Assembly: GCA_019186945.1 (NCBI GenBank)
Contig: JABAQJ010000011.1
Coordinates: 1 to 64,000 of the forward strand
Source: Gemmatimonadaceae bacterium
GTDB lineage: Bacteria; Gemmatimonadota; Gemmatimonadetes; Gemmatimonadales; Gemmatimonadaceae
Length of the DNA: 64,000 nt
Reading direction: 5' to 3'
Shown: in pieces, positions 5,720-37,504 of the stretch
Layout: each line of letters opens with the position of its first letter
Position numbering within the stretch: the stretch's first letter is position 1
Notes under the pieces: generated by a model
The model's input: the letters and a program-made list of their open reading frames with translations, nothing else
What the model was told of the DNA's origin: nothing
Database searches by the model: none
Position numbers and translations under genes: made by a program

Positions 5720-6844
5720 CTACAAGTTGCCGCGGAGCGCCTGCTCGCGCTCGATCGACTCGAAGAGGGCGCGGAAGTTTCCCTTGCCGAAGGATTTCGC
5801 GCCCTTCCGCTGTATGATCTCGTAGAACAGCGTGGGTCGATCCTGGACCGGCTTGGTAAAAATCTGGAGCAGGTAGCCTTCATCGTCGCGGTCCACGAGA
5901 ATGCCCAGCTCCTTCAGTGGGGCCATGTCTTCGTCGATCGTGCCGACGCGCTCCAGTAATGTCTCGTAGTACGATGACGGCGTGCGGAGGAACTCGATTC
6001 CGCGATCACGAAGCGTCGTCACCGTTTCGATGATGTCGTTCGTGGCCATCGCGACGTGCTGCACGCCTGGTCCGCCGTAGTAATCCAGGTATTCCTCGAT
6101 CTGCGACTTCTTCTTCCCCATCGCCGGCTCGTTGATCGGGAACTTGATCCGCCCGTTGCCGTTCGACATGACCTTGGACATCAGCGATGAGTACTCCGTC
6201 GAGATGTCCTTGTCGTCGAATGTCAGGAGATTGTGGAAGCCCAGGACGCGCTCGTAGAAGCCGACCCACTCGTTCATCTTTCCCAGTTCCACGTTGCCAA
6301 CACAGTGGTCGACGTACTCCACGCCAACGGGTGCGGGATTGTACGGAGAACTAACGGGAACGAAGCCCGGAAGGAACAGACCACGGTAGTTCCTGCGCTC
6401 CACGATCGAGTGAATCGTGTCACCGTAGGTACGAATGCCAGCCATGACGATTTCGCCATGGTCATCGTGCAGGACCACCGGTTCCTGCGCGGAGGCCGCG
6501 CCACGCTCGATCGCCTTGGCATAGGCGTCCCGTGCATCGTCCACCCAGAAGGCGAGATCCCGAACGCCATCCCCGTGCGCACGGATGTGGTCAGCCATCG
6601 GGCCCGTCGGACCGAGCGGCGTCGTCAGGACAAATCGGATCTTGCCCTGCTCGAGAAGGTAGCTGCAGCGATCACGAACGCCGGTTTCCGGGCCCCGGTA
6701 CCCGACCAGCTTGAACCCGAACGTGGCACGATAGTAGTGCGCCGACTGCTTCGCGTTGCCAACCCAGAACTCCACATAGTCCGTTCCGTTGATCGGAAAA
6801 GTGTCGTGGACCTCTGGAGACGCAGGAGAAGTGAGGCTAGCCAT
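5720..6844 (-). CDS. hppD: 4-hydroxyphenylpyruvate dioxygenase
   Basis: It converts 4-hydroxyphenylpyruvate to homogentisate. The protein has the two glyoxalase-type beta-alpha-beta repeats of the family. The three Fe(II) ligands sit in the conserved contexts VDHCVGNV, VQHVAMATNDI and a C-terminal EIIQRKG. The GKGNFRALFESIE tail is the family's lid helix. At 374 aa it is full length. AGGA five bases before the ATG at 6844 supports this start. It is the first gene of the hppD-hmgA pair, divergent from a Ser/Thr kinase gene. Two adjacent 8-bp palindromes at 6881-6896 are a candidate control site. Confidence 0.96.
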   Translation of the reverse strand: MASLTSPASPEVHDTFPINGTDYVEFWVGNAKQSAHYYRATFGFKLVGYRGPETGVRDRCSYLLEQGKIRFVLTTPLGPTGPMADHIRAHGDGVRDLAFWVDDARDAYAKAIERGAASAQEPVVLHDDHGEIVMAGIRTYGDTIHSIVERRNYRGLFLPGFVPVSSPYNPAPVGVEYVDHCVGNVELGKMNEWVGFYERVLGFHNLLTFDDKDISTEYSSLMSKVMSNGNGRIKFPINEPAMGKKKSQIEEYLDYYGGPGVQHVAMATNDIIETVTTLRDRGIEFLRTPSSYYETLLERVGTIDEDMAPLKELGILVDRDDEGYLLQIFTKPVQDRPTLFYEIIQRKGAKSFGKGNFRALFESIEREQALRGNL

Positions 6845-6880
6845 AACGTCCTGGGAATGGGCGTGCGTAGTAGTGGTATT

Positions 6881-6896
6881 GACCGGTCGAACGTTC
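6881..6896 (-). promoter_or_regulatory. Twin palindromes upstream of hppD, candidate operator
   Basis: GACCGGTC (6881-6888) and GAACGTTC (6889-6896) are two perfect 8-bp palindromes that abut each other, starting 37 bases upstream of the hppD start codon. The sequence just outside (TT on the left) extends the symmetry slightly. A regulator of tyrosine catabolism could bind here; none is encoded next to it. Confidence 0.25.
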
Positions 6897-7088
6897 CTTG
6901 GCGCTCGCCGCGGCGGCGGGCGTAGCGGAATCTAGCGAATTGCATCCGGCTCCGCCCTCTGCGCCGGCGGCCCACGGTGCACCGAACTCCGCACTCCCCC
7001 CCAGACTTCACGCACGTCATGTTTCGCAACATCGGTCTCCCGCGACCCGTACGGTCCCGAGCGACAACGCACCTTCACCGCAACGAAC

Positions 7089-8792
7089 TTGGACAACCTC
7101 GCCCCGGAAACCATCGAACTGGCGAACGCTCTCTCTGGGCAGTACGCGTTCGTCCGGGAAGTGGGACGAGGTGGCATGGGCATCGTGTGTCTGGCGCGCG
7201 ATCTGAAACTCGATCGTGATGTCGCGATCAAGACACTTCCACCGCATCTTGCCGACAACGCCGAGATCCGCGAGCGGTTTCTGAGGGAAGCCCGGACTGC
7301 GGCAGCGCTCTCCCATCCCAACATCGTCCCAATTTATCACGCGGACGAAGTAGGCGGACGAGTTTTCTTTGTCATGGGATACGTGAGCGGAGAATCGCTC
7401 GCGCAGCTCATACGACAGCAGGGCCTGCTGGCACCGCGCCGTGCGGCGGAGATTCTGATCGACGTCGCATATGCCCTGACTTACGCGCATGGACGGCGCG
7501 TCGTACATCGCGACGTGAAGGCAGAGAACATCCTGATCGACGCATCGACGGGTCGTGCGATGGTGACGGACTTCGGCATCGCCCGTTTGGCCGAAGCCAA
7601 GCCGCTGACTCAGACCGGGAGCGTTCTGGGGACAGTGTACTACATGAGCCCAGAGCAGATCACCGGCGATGTCGTCGACGGACGCAGCGACCTCTACGCG
7701 TTAGGTGTGGCCGGTTTCCTGGCGCTCAGCGGGCACTTTCCGTTCGAGAGCGATACACCGTCGGCCGTGCTGGTGGCACACGTGACGAAGCCGGCACCGC
7801 CGGTTTGCTCCCTGGCGCCACATGTACCGGTGTCGCTCGGCGCCATCATCGACCGCTGCCTGGCCAAGGATCCGGCCGATCGATTTCCCGATGGCGACGC
7901 GCTGGCCACGGCGCTCGAGAGTATCGTGGGCGGCCTGCCGTCCGAACTGCCGGCGCCGGCCATGCCGCATGACCTGCTGATGACGGAAACCGAGGCCCAA
8001 GCCGTGTGGCAGCGGGCCGCGGAACTTCAGGCATCGACCGGAGCGATCGCCCGACCTGTCGCCGCGGACTTCGCGAATCGGCCACGCCCGGCCTCGGCTA
8101 CCTCGGCATACTCTCTGGGAGACGTGGAGGCCGGCGCAGCAGGTGTCGGCGTCGGCAAACATTACGTCTCACGCGCCCTCGCCGAATTGGGGCTGACGAC
8201 GCAGCCACCAGTGGCGATGAGCGGGACCATCGTCCAGGCGAGCAGCGTCCCGAAGCGCAGCGCGTTTCTCGGTGCGTCGAGCACGATCGGATTCGAGTCG
8301 GTCGTGGACGGCGAGATGCCGGAACGCGACTTTGACGTCATGGTGGACCTCATCCGTCGATCGCTCGGTGACGCCGGGCTAGTGAGCGCCGTCGGCCGAT
8401 CGCTCACTTGGAGTTCTGCCGATCGCCAACGCAAGGTGTCGATCACCGTGCTGGTCCGCGGCGGAAAGACGAGCATCCACGTGTCCGAACGGCTGCGCGA
8501 ATTGGCTGGCGGACTCTTTGGCGGCATCATGGGTGGCGGCGGCGGCGCCACCATCGGCCCGATCATCGGCCTGAGCGTGAACGTGACGAACTCCGGCGTC
8601 CTCGCCATGCTCGCGGCCGCAGGCATGCTCGGAACCACCTACGGTGTGGCTCGGACAATCTTCACCCGGATTTCCCGCTCCCGTGGCAAAGCGCTGCAGG
8701 CGCTCACGGAGAAACTGGCAGACCAGGCACGCGAGTCCATCGCCGCGAACGCATTGCCCATGGCGGGCGATCCCCGCCGCTTACGACGTTAG
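7089..8792 (+). CDS. Serine/threonine protein kinase with C-terminal membrane domain
   Basis: An N-terminal Hanks-type kinase domain spans about residues 18-285. The glycine loop is GRGGMG, the ATP lysine is K48 in VAIK, and E67 follows. The catalytic loop is HRDVKAEN (D142), the metal-binding motif is TDFG (D161), and MSPEQ follows. All catalytic residues are intact and it is an RD kinase. A low-complexity linker follows. The last 200 residues form an unfamiliar domain with a Gly-rich hydrophobic stretch near 475-520 that could span the membrane. The start is a TTG at 7089, since no ATG lies between the upstream region and the glycine loop. The opposite-strand neighbour is hppD. The substrate is unknown. 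Confidence 0.92.
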   Translation: MDNLAPETIELANALSGQYAFVREVGRGGMGIVCLARDLKLDRDVAIKTLPPHLADNAEIRERFLREARTAAALSHPNIVPIYHADEVGGRVFFVMGYVSGESLAQLIRQQGLLAPRRAAEILIDVAYALTYAHGRRVVHRDVKAENILIDASTGRAMVTDFGIARLAEAKPLTQTGSVLGTVYYMSPEQITGDVVDGRSDLYALGVAGFLALSGHFPFESDTPSAVLVAHVTKPAPPVCSLAPHVPVSLGAIIDRCLAKDPADRFPDGDALATALESIVGGLPSELPAPAMPHDLLMTETEAQAVWQRAAELQASTGAIARPVAADFANRPRPASATSAYSLGDVEAGAAGVGVGKHYVSRALAELGLTTQPPVAMSGTIVQASSVPKRSAFLGASSTIGFESVVDGEMPERDFDVMVDLIRRSLGDAGLVSAVGRSLTWSSADRQRKVSITVLVRGGKTSIHVSERLRELAGGLFGGIMGGGGGATIGPIIGLSVNVTNSGVLAMLAAAGMLGTTYGVARTIFTRISRSRGKALQALTEKLADQARESIAANALPMAGDPRRLRR

Positions 8793-8804
8793 GCATCCCA
8801 ACAC

Positions 8805-9443
8805 GTGCATCGATCGAATCTCCCAGCACTCCAGGCCCTGCAGCGCCTGAGGGACGGCAATGCCCGTTTCGTGGCAGGCACGAGCGGTGTCTCCGCGTAC
8901 TCGAGTCCGACCCGTCGCACCGAAACGGGCGCCAACCAGCGCCCGTATGCGATCTTGCTGGGGTGCTCCGACTCGCGGGTACCAGCCGAGATCGTCTTCG
9001 ACCAGGGTGTGGGCGATCTTTTCGTGATCCGCGTGGCCGGCAATATCGTCGCCCCGTCGCAGATCGGGAGCGTCGAGTTTGCCGCGGCAGCCTTCGACAC
9101 ACGACTCGTCGTCGTGCTCGGCCATACGCAGTGTGGGGCCATTCATGCGACAATCGATGAACTCATGGGCACAGCCGAGGCTCAGTCGCGGAATCTCCGC
9201 TCGATCGTCAATCGCGTTCGCCCATCGGTCGAAACGCTCATGGCGACAGATCTCCGGAACGATCGTGAGGAGCTGGTTCGTCATGCGGTGCGCGCCAACG
9301 TACGGGCCTCGGTGAGCCACCTGTGTCACGGATCCGACCTGATCGAGCAGCTGATCGAAGAGGACGGACTGCTGGTCGTCGGCGCCGAGTACTCGCTGGA
9401 GACCGGCGTCGTCGACTTTTTCGACGGCGTCGACGGCATGTAG
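8805..9443 (+). CDS. Beta-class carbonic anhydrase
   Basis: It interconverts CO2 and bicarbonate. The zinc site of beta carbonic anhydrases is visible: Cys with its Asp-Arg dyad in GCSDSRVP, and the His-x2-Cys pair in GHTQCGA. The 212-aa length is typical. The start is a GTG 12 bases after the kinase stop codon, so the gene is probably read from the kinase transcript. No signal peptide is seen, so it is expected in the cytoplasm. It converges on the acetoacetate-CoA ligase gene. Confidence 0.93.
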   Translation: MHRSNLPALQALQRLRDGNARFVAGTSGVSAYSSPTRRTETGANQRPYAILLGCSDSRVPAEIVFDQGVGDLFVIRVAGNIVAPSQIGSVEFAAAAFDTRLVVVLGHTQCGAIHATIDELMGTAEAQSRNLRSIVNRVRPSVETLMATDLRNDREELVRHAVRANVRASVSHLCHGSDLIEQLIEEDGLLVVGAEYSLETGVVDFFDGVDGM

Positions 9444-9501
9444 CGACGAAGACAAGGAACCCGTCGCCGGTCGACGACGGTACCACGCTCGTTCTACCTG
9501 T

Positions 9502-11598
9502 TCAGTCCCTTGGCGACAGCTCGGGAAGGTTCGCGAACAGCGCGAGCGCGTCGGGGTTCGCCAGCGCGTCGATGTTTGCGACAGGGCGTCCATGGATCAC
9601 CTCGCGAACTGCAAGCTCGGTGATTTTCCCGCTGATGGTGCGCGGTATGTCCGCGACCTGGACGATCACCTTCGGGACATGGTGGGGGCTGGCGTTTTCG
9701 CGTATCCGGGCGCGGATGCGGGCGCGCATGGCGTCGTCCAGCGTTAGGCCAGAACGCAGTCGGACGAACAGCACGACACGGACGTCGCGATCGGTCGCCG
9801 TGGCGATGTCCTGACCAACCACGAGACTTTCCACGATCTCCGGAAGCTGTTCAACCTGCCGGTAGATCTCCGCGGTGCCGATGCGGACGCCGCTGGGATT
9901 GAGCGTCGCATCGCTGCGACCGGTGATGATCAGACCGCCATGGGTCGTGATTTCGGCCCAGTCCCCGTGCTGCCACGCTCCCGGGAAACGGTCGAAGTAC
10001 GCGGCGCGATAGGCCCTCCCGCCGGGATCGTTCCAGAACGCGATCGGCATACTCGGGAACGGTCGCGTGCACACCAACTCCCCCGGGACGCCCCATACCG
10101 GCTTCCCGTCCGCGTCGAAGACGTCCACGGCCATCCCCAGCCCGCGAACTTGCAGCTCGCCGCGCCAGACCGCACCGGCTGGGTTGCCCAAGGCGAAACA
10201 GGATACGATGTCCGTGCCGCCGCTGATACTGCTCAGACAAACGTCGTTCGACACGTCACGATAGACGTAGTCGAAGCTGGACGGCGCCAGCGGACTGCCC
10301 GTCGACAGTATGGTACGTAAGGCGCCGATGTCGTGCGTCCGACAAGGCGAGAGACCCTCCTTCTCCGACAGCGCGAGGTACTTCGCGCTCGTTCCGAACA
10401 CGTTCACGCGCTCTGCCTCCGCCATCTCCCACAGGATGTCCGGAGCAACCGATCCCCTGCGACGACTGCGTGGCCCAGGAACGAGCGGGGCGCCGTCGTA
10501 CAGTACGATCGTAGCGTCGCTGGCAAGCACGCTGACGAGCCAGTTCCACATCATCCAGCCGCACGTCGTGAAATAGAAAACGCGGTCGCCTCCGGCGATG
10601 TCCGTGTGCAGGCGGTGTTCCTTCAGATGCTGGAGCAACGTGCCGCCAGCTCCATGCACCATGCACTTTGGCAGCCCGGTCGTGCCTGACGAGTACAGGA
10701 TATAGACCGGGTGATCGAATGGCAGTCGGGTGAACGCGAGCGGCGGCGAATCGGCGTGCAACCAGTCCCCCCACCAACGGCCGATTCTCGGAATTGGCTC
10801 CGTACCGCTCGATCGGTCTGGCTCTTCTCCACGAGACGGTCCGCCGCGAACGTACGGGACGACCACGACGCGACCGATACCCGGCAACGCCTCCACGATG
10901 TCGTGCAATCGCGTCCGGAGGTCGATTTCCTTGTCCGCGTACCTGTACCCGTCAGCTGCGAACAACACCTTTGGCTCGATCTGTCCGAAGCGGTCGACGA
11001 CGCCACGGACGCCGAAATCCGGTGAGCAGGACGACCAGATCGCCCCCAAGCTGACAGTCGCCAGCATGGCGATCACAGCCTCCGGGATGTTGGGAAGATA
11101 TCCCGCCACCCGGTCCCCCACGCCCACGCCCTCGCGCCGCAAGGCAGACGCCACTCGTGCGACCTGCCCGTAGAGTTCGCCGTACGTCAACGTGCGATAG
11201 CGACCCTCCTCGTTCCAGGCAACGATCGCCTCGCGATCGTCCGACCGGCGCATCAGGTTCTCCGCGAAGTTGAGCCTTGCTCCCGCGAACCAACGCGGTC
11301 CCAGTTCGGGGTCAGGTGGCGCCATTCTATCCAGCCCGACCACGACGTCCTGCCAGGGATCGCCGGCAGGCACGGAGGGTGTGGAAATCACTCCGCACGA
11401 TCGCCAGATCTCTGTCCAGAACGCTGCCGGCTCGGCGACGGACCATCGCCACAACGTCTCGTAGTCGAGCGAACCTCGTTCGTCCACCGAATGGACGACA
11501 CCCGCCGCCTGCAGCCGCCGGGCCAGGGCCAGGATCTGCGTGCGTGACACGCGCTCTGCCGATGGCGTCCAGAGCGGACGTTCCGCCGTGATCGTCAC
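9502..11598 (-). CDS. Acetoacetate-CoA ligase
   Basis: This 698-aa ANL-superfamily enzyme activates acetoacetate to acetoacetyl-CoA with ATP. The AMP-binding core motif YSSGTTGLPKCMVHG, the GRSDATLNPSGVRIG hinge and the C-terminal catalytic lysine region TISGKITE are all present. Its length and the N-terminal region with FWTEIWRSCGV match acetoacetyl-CoA synthetases rather than acetyl-CoA synthetase. The start appears to be GTG at 11598. Acetoacetate is an end product of the homogentisate route, whose first enzymes are encoded 3 kb away, so a shared role is plausible. The gene stands alone on its strand between a convergent neighbour and the FKBP gene. Confidence 0.92.
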   Translation of the reverse strand: MTITAERPLWTPSAERVSRTQILALARRLQAAGVVHSVDERGSLDYETLWRWSVAEPAAFWTEIWRSCGVISTPSVPAGDPWQDVVVGLDRMAPPDPELGPRWFAGARLNFAENLMRRSDDREAIVAWNEEGRYRTLTYGELYGQVARVASALRREGVGVGDRVAGYLPNIPEAVIAMLATVSLGAIWSSCSPDFGVRGVVDRFGQIEPKVLFAADGYRYADKEIDLRTRLHDIVEALPGIGRVVVVPYVRGGPSRGEEPDRSSGTEPIPRIGRWWGDWLHADSPPLAFTRLPFDHPVYILYSSGTTGLPKCMVHGAGGTLLQHLKEHRLHTDIAGGDRVFYFTTCGWMMWNWLVSVLASDATIVLYDGAPLVPGPRSRRRGSVAPDILWEMAEAERVNVFGTSAKYLALSEKEGLSPCRTHDIGALRTILSTGSPLAPSSFDYVYRDVSNDVCLSSISGGTDIVSCFALGNPAGAVWRGELQVRGLGMAVDVFDADGKPVWGVPGELVCTRPFPSMPIAFWNDPGGRAYRAAYFDRFPGAWQHGDWAEITTHGGLIITGRSDATLNPSGVRIGTAEIYRQVEQLPEIVESLVVGQDIATATDRDVRVVLFVRLRSGLTLDDAMRARIRARIRENASPHHVPKVIVQVADIPRTISGKITELAVREVIHGRPVANIDALANPDALALFANLPELSPRD

Positions 11599-31751: not shown

Positions 31752-31872
31752 CAGCCGCAACCGGCGAGGCTCTGGCGGTCGCGAGTACCAGCACCGACTT
31801 TTCCACGGTTGTCGCGTACGGCGGTGCGTGGACACCGACACGACTGCAACGAACGGCAACGCACGACTAGAC

Positions 31873-32388
31873 ATGGTTCAGAAGAAGATCTGCTTGGTAG
31901 GCGTCTTCGGCACCGGCAAGACCAGCCTGGTGCAGCGTTTCGTACAGTCCATTTTCGCCGTGAAGTACCACAGCACGATCGGTGTGAAGGTCGACCGCAA
32001 AGAGGTGCTGGTGGATCGTGTAGGGGTGAACCTCCTGCTTTGGGATCTGGCCGGGCGGGACGCGGACCAGGACATTTCGCCGAGCTATCTGCGGGGATCG
32101 CATGGCGTCTTCTACGTCGCCGACGGCACGCGCCCGGAGACAGTCCATGAACTCGACGACCTTCGCCGCCTGGTGACCGATGCGATCGGCGCCGTTCCGT
32201 CCATCGCCGCCATCAACAAGGCGGATCTCGCCGCCGACTGGAAGTTCACGCCAGCCGATGAGCAGGCGCTGCTCGCCCGGGATTTCCAGGTGATACATAC
32301 CAGCGCCGGGACTGGCACCGGTGTCGACGATGCGTTCAATCGGCTCGCTCGATTCGTCCTGGCCGCTCGGCCGCCGCATGCGACTTGA
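31873..32388 (+). CDS. Ras-like small GTPase
   Basis: This 171-aa protein is essentially a bare G domain. The P-loop is GVFGTGKTS, a switch I Thr lies in KYHSTIGVK, G3 is WDLAGRD (the usual Gln after Gly is Arg), G4 is NKAD and G5 is TSAGTG. There is no membrane anchor or Cys tail. The ATG at 31873 puts the P-loop about 10 residues in, as in Rab and Rup-type proteins; an upstream GTG at 31828 would add 15 residues. The Arg at the catalytic Gln position suggests slow intrinsic hydrolysis. It overlaps the PP2C gene by 11 bases, so the two are translated together. Confidence 0.88.
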   Translation: MVQKKICLVGVFGTGKTSLVQRFVQSIFAVKYHSTIGVKVDRKEVLVDRVGVNLLLWDLAGRDADQDISPSYLRGSHGVFYVADGTRPETVHELDDLRRLVTDAIGAVPSIAAINKADLAADWKFTPADEQALLARDFQVIHTSAGTGTGVDDAFNRLARFVLAARPPHAT

Positions 32389-33187
32389 CGCGCACGGCCG
32401 CACGGACCGGGGTAAGGCCCGCGACGTCAACGAGGACAACTTCGCCATCGCCACCGTTCGGCGAACCGTGACGATGGAGCTGACGAGTCTGGCGGCGTCG
32501 GCCAACCGGGACATGGGGCTGTCTGAGGCGCACGTGCTCATTGTCGCCGATGGTGTAGGGGGGCTGGCCGGCGGTGAACTGGCCAGCGCCATGACCGTGG
32601 AGACGATAATCGGACAGCTCGGACAGCTACCCATCGCCGCTAACGGCGCGGACCCCGACGCGGAAAACGACTTCATCGGGGCTATCGAGCGACTGGCCCA
32701 CCGGGCTCACGCCCTGATTCAGGAGACCTACGGCGCGCCCGGTCGTGCTCCGGCGACCACGCTAACCATGGTCGTACTGTCATGGCCACGCGCGTATTAC
32801 GTGCATGTAGGCGATTCGCGCGCCTATTACCTGCACCGTGGACGCCTTCGTCAGCTCACGCGAGATCAGACGACCGGCGACTACGCGGTCGATCTCGGCA
32901 TCATGACGGAGGAGAAAGCGCGCAAAGCCGGCCTGTTCAACCGCCTGTCCAGCGCCATCGGTGCGGAGTTGACATCGAGCGCCGGCTTGATCGACCTGGA
33001 TGATGCCGACGTCCTGCTGCTTTGCACCGACGGGCTGACCAAACACGTGACTGACGACCAGATCGCCGATGTCTTGCGACTGCCGGCGCCATCGCCAGAG
33101 AAGACGGCACGCCTGCTGCAGCGTGCGCTCGATGCCGGTGGTTCGGACAACGTGACGGCAATCGTCGCGCAAGTCGCCGAGGCATGA
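32378..33187 (+). CDS. PP2C-family Ser/Thr protein phosphatase
   Basis: This 269-aa PPM-type phosphatase has the metal-binding motifs in order: RTDRGKARDVNEDN, VADGVGG, VHVGDSRAYYL, LLCTDGLT and GGSDNVTAI. The catalytic aspartates and the N-terminal Arg that binds phosphate are all present, so it should be active. I chose the ATG at 32378 inside the GTPase gene because the upstream residues are not PP2C-like. The coupling to a GTPase suggests the two act on one process. The Ser/Thr kinase in this window (7089-8792) is distant, so its being the antagonist is only a possibility. Confidence 0.93.
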   Translation: MRLDAHGRTDRGKARDVNEDNFAIATVRRTVTMELTSLAASANRDMGLSEAHVLIVADGVGGLAGGELASAMTVETIIGQLGQLPIAANGADPDAENDFIGAIERLAHRAHALIQETYGAPGRAPATTLTMVVLSWPRAYYVHVGDSRAYYLHRGRLRQLTRDQTTGDYAVDLGIMTEEKARKAGLFNRLSSAIGAELTSSAGLIDLDDADVLLLCTDGLTKHVTDDQIADVLRLPAPSPEKTARLLQRALDAGGSDNVTAIVAQVAEA

Positions 33188-36281: not shown

Positions 36282-37358
36282 TTATCCATCGCGCGGCTTA
36301 TTGCCCGAACTCCGTAGCGAGACCACGCGATTCAGCAGATCAAACCAGAATGGTGCGCCGAGTGTGATGGCGAACGCCGTGAGAAGGAGGCCAAGCCATC
36401 CCCGGCGAACGATGGGCCATCGTTCGCGGAACACCGCGCCCGCGAACTTTCTCGCCGGGCCGTTTCGCAGCTGTTCGGTCGCTGCACTGAGCGGCGGATA
36501 CCCGATCGGCAGGCCAAGAACGCCGATGGAATCGAGCCTGATGGTGAGATCCGTTACGCGCGTGAGCGCCACGTCGCTGGCGGCGGAATCCGACATCGTC
36601 GGAGGATTGGTGGAATCCGTCACGACATCCGTCGCCATCGCCACCAGCGCTTGCCGGAGCGTGGCATTCGTGGACAGGGTGCGAATGATTGCGATGGTAT
36701 TGGCGTTCACCGACACGGCGACGACGATTGCCACCGCCATCCCCACGAGCTGCACTCGGCGTTTGTAGCTGGCGCGAAGCCGATCCATCGACTCGTCGAA
36801 CCATCCTTGCAGATTCCGCTCGAACCGGTGGATGTCTCCATGAGCACGATCCGCAAACAACCTGAGCACTTGTCCAACCTGGCCGAAGTCGGTCTCGAGC
36901 TGCTGTCCGTTCAGCGGAATCTGCGCGATGGCCGGAACCGCCGTTCCCGCGGCCAGATCGTGACGACGGATTACGTCGAGCAGAACGCTGACGAACGTGG
37001 CCGAGGGGATGTACGACGGGGTCAGACCCTTTCGCCGAAAGAAGTTGAAGACGCGAAGCGAGTAACGCTCCTTCATGCCGGCGATTAGCGGATGCGCATA
37101 CACCTGCTCCGCCAGCCGATATCCAGCCACCGAATACGTGCGATTCATCAGGGCGTTGCCGAAGCCTCGTGCCACCTCGGCGCGGTCCGGTCGCTTGGGT
37201 GACGTCGTTAGCAACTGGAAGATCGCGTCCTGCAGCATTTTCCCGCGCAGGTGCAGGAAGTGAGCGATAGCTTCATTCAGCGCGACGCAGATCAGGCTCA
37301 GAAGCAGATAGACGAAGAGGAGCCCGATGACGACGTCCAACGACTCGAGGCCAAACAT
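36282..37358 (-). CDS. Membrane protein of unknown function
   Basis: The ATG at 37358 gives a 358-aa protein that begins MFGLESLDVVIGLLFVYLLL, a hydrophobic helix seen at the start of widespread uncharacterised bacterial membrane proteins. A soluble, charged region of about 180 residues follows. A second helix lies near 215-240 and a last one near 320-345, separated by a Thr/Ser/Asp-rich loop that is probably extracytoplasmic. There are no catalytic motifs I recognise. It stands alone between the amidohydrolase and S9 peptidase genes on the same strand, each more than 100 bases away. Confidence 0.75.
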   Translation of the reverse strand: MFGLESLDVVIGLLFVYLLLSLICVALNEAIAHFLHLRGKMLQDAIFQLLTTSPKRPDRAEVARGFGNALMNRTYSVAGYRLAEQVYAHPLIAGMKERYSLRVFNFFRRKGLTPSYIPSATFVSVLLDVIRRHDLAAGTAVPAIAQIPLNGQQLETDFGQVGQVLRLFADRAHGDIHRFERNLQGWFDESMDRLRASYKRRVQLVGMAVAIVVAVSVNANTIAIIRTLSTNATLRQALVAMATDVVTDSTNPPTMSDSAASDVALTRVTDLTIRLDSIGVLGLPIGYPPLSAATEQLRNGPARKFAGAVFRERWPIVRRGWLGLLLTAFAITLGAPFWFDLLNRVVSLRSSGNKPRDG

Positions 37359-37504
37359 GGTGGTTGCCCCTGCGTGCGTGGTTGGGCCGGCGATGGTGCG
37401 TCGCCGGCACGCCGGGTCGTAGCACGCCGCGGGCATCCGATCCATGCCGGTTTGAGCGACACGATCTTAATTCCCGCCCAGTCCTCCGTCGAGACGGGAC
37501 GGTA

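Follow-up and report, generated by a model that had tools for sequence, protein, structure and literature searches.

A conserved gene pair of a Rup-type Ras-like GTPase and a PP2C phosphatase in a Gemmatimonadaceae genome, probably a reduced Group 1 Rup system

A Ras-like GTPase gene and a PP2C-type phosphatase gene, which overlap in a 64,000-nucleotide stretch of a Gemmatimonadaceae genome (the window), belong to a conserved and real unit, whose new feature is a PP2C output in a Group 1 Rup system, reduced in the window. We consider it likely (probability roughly 0.65) that the pair represents such a system in reduced form and that the PP2C is the effector of the GTPase. Comparison with relatives suggests that this PP2C may serve as the output of a bacterial signaling system, little studied so far, linking the cell envelope to the cytoplasm; if true, the conserved unit would provide a G-protein-controlled Ser/Thr phosphatase in bacteria. 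A preliminary description of this DNA had called the pairing one that could not be named. The GTPase-phosphatase pair itself proved to be real, but it can be named: in relatives, it closes a Group 1 Rup set of genes, the PP2C taking the position of the output enzyme. Coordinates are listed in Table 1.

Table 1. Features of the gene pair in the window and of the second Rup system in the same genome
Feature	Position	Strand	Remarks
Rup-type Ras-like GTPase, 171 aa	31873..32388	+	ATG start 31873; Pfam Ras
PP2C-type Ser/Thr phosphatase, 269 aa	32378..33187	+	ATG start 32378; Pfam PP2C_2
Segment shared by both reading frames, 11 bases	32378..32388	+	
121-base gap 5′ of the GTPase	31752..31872	+	Coiled-coil and longin-TM-OmpA genes lie here in 10 of 13 related loci
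Second Rup system (coiled coil, longin-TM-OmpA, Rup)	L052 (C4) ~6700-9755		

The overlap of 11 bases, and the bare G domain next to an active-looking PP2C, were correctly recognized in the preliminary description. Both proteins matched their Pfam families above the cut-off (Ras, E 5e-24; PP2C_2, E 1e-15). The GTPase is a Ras-superfamily protein with a single G domain and G1-G5 motifs (G1 GVFGTGKT, G3 DLAGR, G4 NKAD, G5 TSAGT), in which Thr35 of switch I is retained, the Lys of G5 is changed to Gly and no Gln is present in G3. An in-frame GTG at 31828 is an alternative start that would add 15 aa. The PP2C retains the motifs NED, ADGVGG, GDSRAY, CTDGL and SDNVT, whose roles we take to be metal/phosphate binding and catalysis. 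With both a PP2C (PPM) family match and the metal-binding and catalytic motifs, the protein qualifies as a putative bacterial PP2C phosphatase. It resembles Stp1/PrpC-type PP2Cs in catalytic domain and motifs; however, it is linked to a GTPase, and its match to the Stp1/IreP equivalog NCBIfam NF033484 (E 7e-44, 150.1 bits) is under the 230-bit cut-off.

Translation of the two genes may be coupled via their overlap. The upstream neighbor of the GTPase, 121 bases off, is an M55 peptidase gene, and the downstream neighbor of the PP2C is a cysteine-synthase-like gene on the opposite strand. Because these flanking genes are patchy, each being matched in 5 of 31 genomes (the window's genome counted), no empty site was found. 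Scans for repeats and promoters around the pair revealed no convincing element.

We observed the same gene order in relatives. In 20 of 395 genomes sampled from the phylum, the GTPase had matches (E 1e-12 or better), which amounted to 25 places. A PP2C was present 3′ on the same strand within the 1.5-kb flank at 10 of these places, window counted, and some of the other 15 flanks were shortened by contig ends. The adjacency spans eight genus codes among the nine pair genomes besides that of the window. In a species scan (one genome per species), eight loci with a PP2C directly after the GTPase were detected among the best 80 of at least 570 relatives; in the same set, L065 has a PP2C upstream of the whole set. 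After removal of contigs seen twice, there were 13 distinct pair loci (window counted), including 12 from Gemmatimonadota and L059 from an Acidobacteriota MAG titled Thermoanaerobaculia; these locus counts rest mostly on MAGs, many with short contigs. A PP2C of a single clade lies downstream on the same strand in all 13 checkable loci of the GTPase clade, the 14th row (L056) being left out since its contig ends after the GTPase. This constancy of order and strand indicates that the adjacency is more than chance. Co-occurrence across genomes had been proposed as a check on the pair, with loss of adjacency in related species as the outcome that would speak against it; the adjacency was instead conserved.

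Gene adjacency alone is never proof of interaction, and the two genes could be co-regulated neighbors with independent functions. We consider this highly improbable, because two co-descending clades are held together across genera, and overlapping reading frames are seen not only in the window but also in L035, L060 and L064 (4 bases each).

Occurrence of the pair outside Gemmatimonadota was limited. L059, which has the four-gene PP2C form described below, is one MAG among 396 sampled Acidobacteriota genomes; no PP2C was found within the 1.5-kb flanks of 23 Rup places in the other 20 matching Acidobacteriota genomes, one of these flanks being cut. The pair in L059 may reflect transfer or misbinning. 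In addition, four plasmid records contained a Rup-like GTPase.

In 10 of the 13 loci, the pair ends a four-gene set composed of a coiled-coil gene (~200 codons), a TM-OmpA gene (~600 codons), the GTPase and the PP2C. The contig of L040 ends inside the OmpA-like gene, and in the other two loci, the window and L063, neither upstream gene is present beside the pair. Searches of the window for the coiled-coil and OmpA-like genes gave no match below E 0.7.

This arrangement corresponds to the Group 1 Rup systems of Wuichet and Sogaard-Andersen (2014; PMC4316618). According to the parts of that paper dealing with this group, a coiled-coil gene and then a gene for a membrane protein (conserved domain, TM helix, OmpA end) precede a GTPase without the G3 Gln. 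The product of the fourth gene, in typical cases a histidine kinase or a fused diguanylate cyclase/phosphodiesterase, has in its N-terminal region an invariant Gln proposed to complete catalysis. No member of the Rup family had been characterized experimentally at the time of its description. The word "phosphatase" is absent from the main text of the paper. The window resembles these systems in its Ras-like G domain, whose G3 lacks the Gln, and, through its relatives, in the coiled-coil and TM-OmpA genes upstream. It differs in that its output, a PP2C, is a protein of its own and has no Gln-bearing N-terminal domain, and in that both upstream genes are absent at the window. We regard it as a derived relative of Group 1 Rup rather than a standard member, a grouping based on shared gene sets. 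Neither the Rup-PP2C pair nor the longin-OmpA protein was found described in the titles and abstract openings listed from the open-licence PubMed Central literature, among which one paper mentioned Rup GTPases by name.

The membrane protein of the relatives (~600 residues) carries an OmpA domain, and a long helix in its model was read as a TM segment. Its periplasmic part is similar in structure to OmpA and Rv0899. Since OmpA/Pal/MotB-type rows were among the 50 Foldseek matches listed for the whole protein, the cytoplasmic domain was modeled alone (AlphaFold, 51 sequences, pLDDT 82.6). The best match of this model was Sec22b (VIA Z 14.9, 123 residues, rmsd 2.5 Å), and other longin domains were also matched (VAMP7, Z 14.1; Ykt6, 14.0; Fuzzy, 13.4), as was MglB, the partner of MglA (3t12_C, Z 10.3). 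Traces in Pfam were weak: of the 51 members, 3 matched Fuz_longin_1 (best E 0.075) and 2 matched Robl_LC7 (best E 0.017). This "unknown" cytoplasmic domain is predicted to be a longin domain. Roadblock and longin domains are described, in the relevant part of PMC10933270, as platforms and regulators of small GTPases. Fold and gene order point to the longin-TM-OmpA protein as a putative membrane receptor that sets the GTPase, and the longin assignment makes testable the "unknown GAP" question raised in the Group 1 part of PMC4316618.

The slot after the GTPase is an exchangeable output. We surveyed the gene in this slot at 68 non-PP2C places of the species scan (best 80 of at least 570 relatives), other Gemmatimonadota Rups being left out. 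L097, L118 and L120 gave no usable frame, and some of the 65 usable downstream proteins were short, cut or picked merely as the longest frame. At E 0.001, these outputs included 21 with HATPase_c, 12 with SpoIIE, 6 with sigma-54 activator, 4 with GGDEF, 4 with guanylate cyclase, 3 with EAL and 2 with HD domains, where one output may match several families and the tallies are among 25 of 37 families listed. A simpler view, that outputs outside the PP2C clade are kinases and GGDEF proteins, was dropped, as SpoIIE phosphatases, sigma-54 activators and cyclases were also present. Examples of the latter two are guanylate/adenylate cyclases in Myxococcales MAGs and a sigma-54 activator in a Desulfococcus MAG (L077, L119 and L074). 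Cyclase and sigma-54 output kinds go unnamed in the Group 1 Rup sections of PMC4316618.

All 12 SpoIIE-type systems (L082, L086, L089, L096, L102, L104, L111, L114, L117, L122, L127 and L131) form one Burkholderiales-type clade, mostly Variovorax. Like the pair in the window, they consist of a Rup GTPase followed by a PPM-type phosphatase; in contrast to it, their phosphatase domain is fused C-terminally to the Gln-bearing domain in every case. SpoIIE and PP2C belong to one superfamily, and SpoIIE-type phosphatases often act on anti-sigma antagonists. The SpoIIE protein of L089, the sole one compared, had no BLAST similarity to the window PP2C. PPM-type phosphatases occupy the output slot on two separate branches. 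Because outputs elsewhere include these 12 SpoIIE phosphatases as well as sigma-54 activators and cyclases, our estimate that the PP2C is an effector was raised from 0.60 to 0.65.

The output Gln was present in 48 of the 50 loci where the domain aligned, the exceptions being L118 (cut) and L065 (Asp). For the N-terminal domain that holds it, we use "PAS-like" as a working label. A profile of this domain run after 12 other PP2C-type Rups, with the window outside the run, gave nothing significant (a chance row for L062 had E 17). The PP2C of the window is itself a separate protein in place of a Gln-domain output, so that the Gln-bearing output of Group 1 is absent here. This counts against the PP2C as effector, as other outputs may contact the GTPase by the Gln-bearing domain, and contact in the PP2C systems would need another route.

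Common descent of both genes was observed in trees. In a Rup tree of 93 proteins, the PP2C-type Rups form a clade of 14 rows (all those with a PP2C after the GTPase, plus L056; 100 bootstrap/97 SH-aLRT). Its sister is L065 (98/90), where the set starts with the PP2C, continues with the coiled-coil, OmpA-like and Rup genes and closes with a histidine kinase. L068 and L069 branch off next (96/87), and their outputs resemble the kinase of L065. In a PP2C tree of 45 proteins, the 14 Rup-linked PP2Cs, including that of L065, form one clade (96 SH-aLRT) beside a common PP2C of the phylum. On a simple reading, a kinase may have been the first output, which was joined later by a phosphatase and finally lost, leaving the phosphatase. 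The PP2C swap is a single event on the tree, and the loci are not independent cases. The position of the L065 PP2C, at the other end of the set, also counts against an effector role, the "output slot" being a positional inference there.

In another Gemmatimonadota Rup clade (L049 and L090), the GTPase is followed by a short receiver-like gene, with a weak VpsR match in L049; this is possibly another output type. L049 also has a gene with an EAL match below the cut-off. PAS histidine kinases were detected upstream in L048 and L049, along with an NtrC-type regulator in L048 and, by eye, in L049.

In the window's genome, the parts of the system are split. Contig C4 carries its one OmpA-like longin match and its one coiled-coil match, next to a second Rup sharing 42% identity with that of the window. 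The 19 kb around this set contained neither a PP2C nor a kinase of the type searched for, and the scanned frames after it are on the opposite strand and have no signaling domain. An EAL-HDOD gene on the opposite strand (L052 753-2015), ~4.7 kb before the C4 set, may be its output. The genome has a receptor set without an output directly beside it (C4) and an output without a receptor beside it (C10). L063 also has two Rups, on the same contig in opposite orientation; one is in a pair without receptor genes and the other in a set of coiled coil, OmpA-like, Rup and kinase-like output.

It could be argued that the pair in the window is a stranded remnant, either decaying or recruited by an unrelated regulator such as a roadblock protein encoded elsewhere. 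The missing coiled-coil and OmpA-like genes and the change of the G5 Lys to Gly fit this explanation. So do the branch lengths, as each of the two window proteins sits on the longest end branch in its clade (0.69 and 0.89), and the presence of four Robl_LC7 places elsewhere in the genome. However, both frames are open, catalytic and nucleotide-binding motifs are retained, and the reduced form recurs in L063, which sits elsewhere in the clade. We consider a remnant quite unlikely. The long end branches could be drift; the window Rup departs from conserved columns at 4 positions (range 1-6) and the window PP2C at 6 (range 0-6, joint highest).

The preliminary description also pointed to an Arg in place of the catalytic Gln, which is indeed the case: Arg62 of the window GTPase, at the end of DLAGR, aligns with Gln61 of Ras. 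With Phe12 in the P-loop GVFGTGKT and Arg62, space for a standard arginine finger would presumably be tight and intrinsic hydrolysis slow, by analogy with Ras. In the 93-row set, this position is Arg in 13 and Lys in 1 of the 14 PP2C-clade rows and Lys in L065, and the other 78 rows, none with a basic residue, have Glu (66), Asp (4), Val (2), Ala (2) and Thr, Ile, Asn or Ser (1 each). This distribution, together with the replacement of the invariant output Gln by Asp in L065 alone, had suggested that a basic residue co-evolved with the PP2C. Strict co-evolution was ruled out by 23 further Acidobacteriota loci (L178-L200; Glu 18, Lys 3, His 1, Gln 1), since the three Rups with Lys (L194, L195 and L197) have no PP2C alongside, implying that the basic residue does not require a PP2C. 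L194 and L197, whose output domain could be aligned, retain the output Gln, and the L195 output reads as GGDEF by eye. Conversely, no basic residue was found in any of the 12 SpoIIE-type systems, implying that phosphatase outputs can do without it. Arg at this position was seen only in the PP2C clade, to which it appears peculiar, and probably reflects one event on the tree. The need for a hydrolysis partner, argued from the missing Gln, has already been published for Group 1 Rup GTPases (PMC4316618, Group 1 part). This partner need not be the PP2C; the membrane protein with the longin domain has at least an equal claim to the role.

Control could also run in the opposite direction, with the PP2C acting on the GTPase module, either by dephosphorylating Rup, the coiled-coil protein or the longin protein or by joining in GTP hydrolysis. 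The conserved adjacency fits this too, and with the Gln-bearing domain missing, another protein must aid catalysis. However, the PP2C occupies the place held in relatives by kinases, cyclases, sigma-54 activators and SpoIIE phosphatases, and columns that distinguish Rup-linked PP2Cs are few (seven), none being a Gln. We judge such reversed control unlikely.

For the PP2C as effector, we infer contact with the GTPase, direction of control, receptor sharing and substrates as follows. The periplasmic OmpA-like domain (peptidoglycan-binding type) of the membrane protein would be the envelope end of the receptor, and its cytoplasmic longin domain, with the coiled-coil protein, would set the nucleotide state of the GTPase. 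GTP-loaded Rup would bind and control the co-encoded PP2C, which would remove phosphates placed by Hanks-type kinases encoded elsewhere; the products of these kinases in the genome are its expected substrates. The window's pair would share the C4 receptor or have found another regulator. The preliminary description had also noted the lack of a neighboring kinase. This holds for immediate neighbors, but Hanks-type kinase places number 24 in the genome (one of them inside the window), alongside 5 PP2Cs, so a missing neighbor kinase says little. The kinase domain in the window (Ser/Thr, 7143-7886, plus strand), ~24 kb upstream of the pair, is a candidate counterpart of the PP2C.

A fuller scheme is tentative, with the odds against it as a whole. 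An envelope-anchored TM longin protein would set Rup, and Rup-GTP would switch the PP2C, resetting Hanks-kinase signaling. Rup would be a plug-in platform with freely exchanged outputs, among which phosphatases were acquired on two or more occasions (by Burkholderiales as SpoIIE-type, by Gemmatimonadota as PP2C), and the C4 receptor half and the C10 output half would act in trans.

MglA/MglB and the actinobacterial conservons likewise combine a bacterial Ras-like GTPase, a regulator of roadblock/longin fold and a signaling partner. However, the regulator predicted in the present case is a longin domain that forms part of a TM OmpA protein, with no free MglB, and the partner is a PP2C. No Robl_LC7 place, as would be expected of a companion MglB roadblock gene, was detected on contig C10. 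In eukaryotes, a Ras-superfamily switch and a PP2C domain meet in fungal adenylate cyclase (RA and PP2C domains), PHLPP and plant ROP11-ABI1; these architectures differ from the bacterial pair.

Two further observations were made. A 387-aa protein encoded in the window (36282-37445, minus strand) has TM stretches by eye and matched neither Pfam nor NCBIfam families at E 0.01. In addition, two Rup genes lie close together in L023/L029, L112 and L179/L198, and it is a matter of speculation, by analogy, that such paired Rups might form heterodimers as Rag GTPases do.
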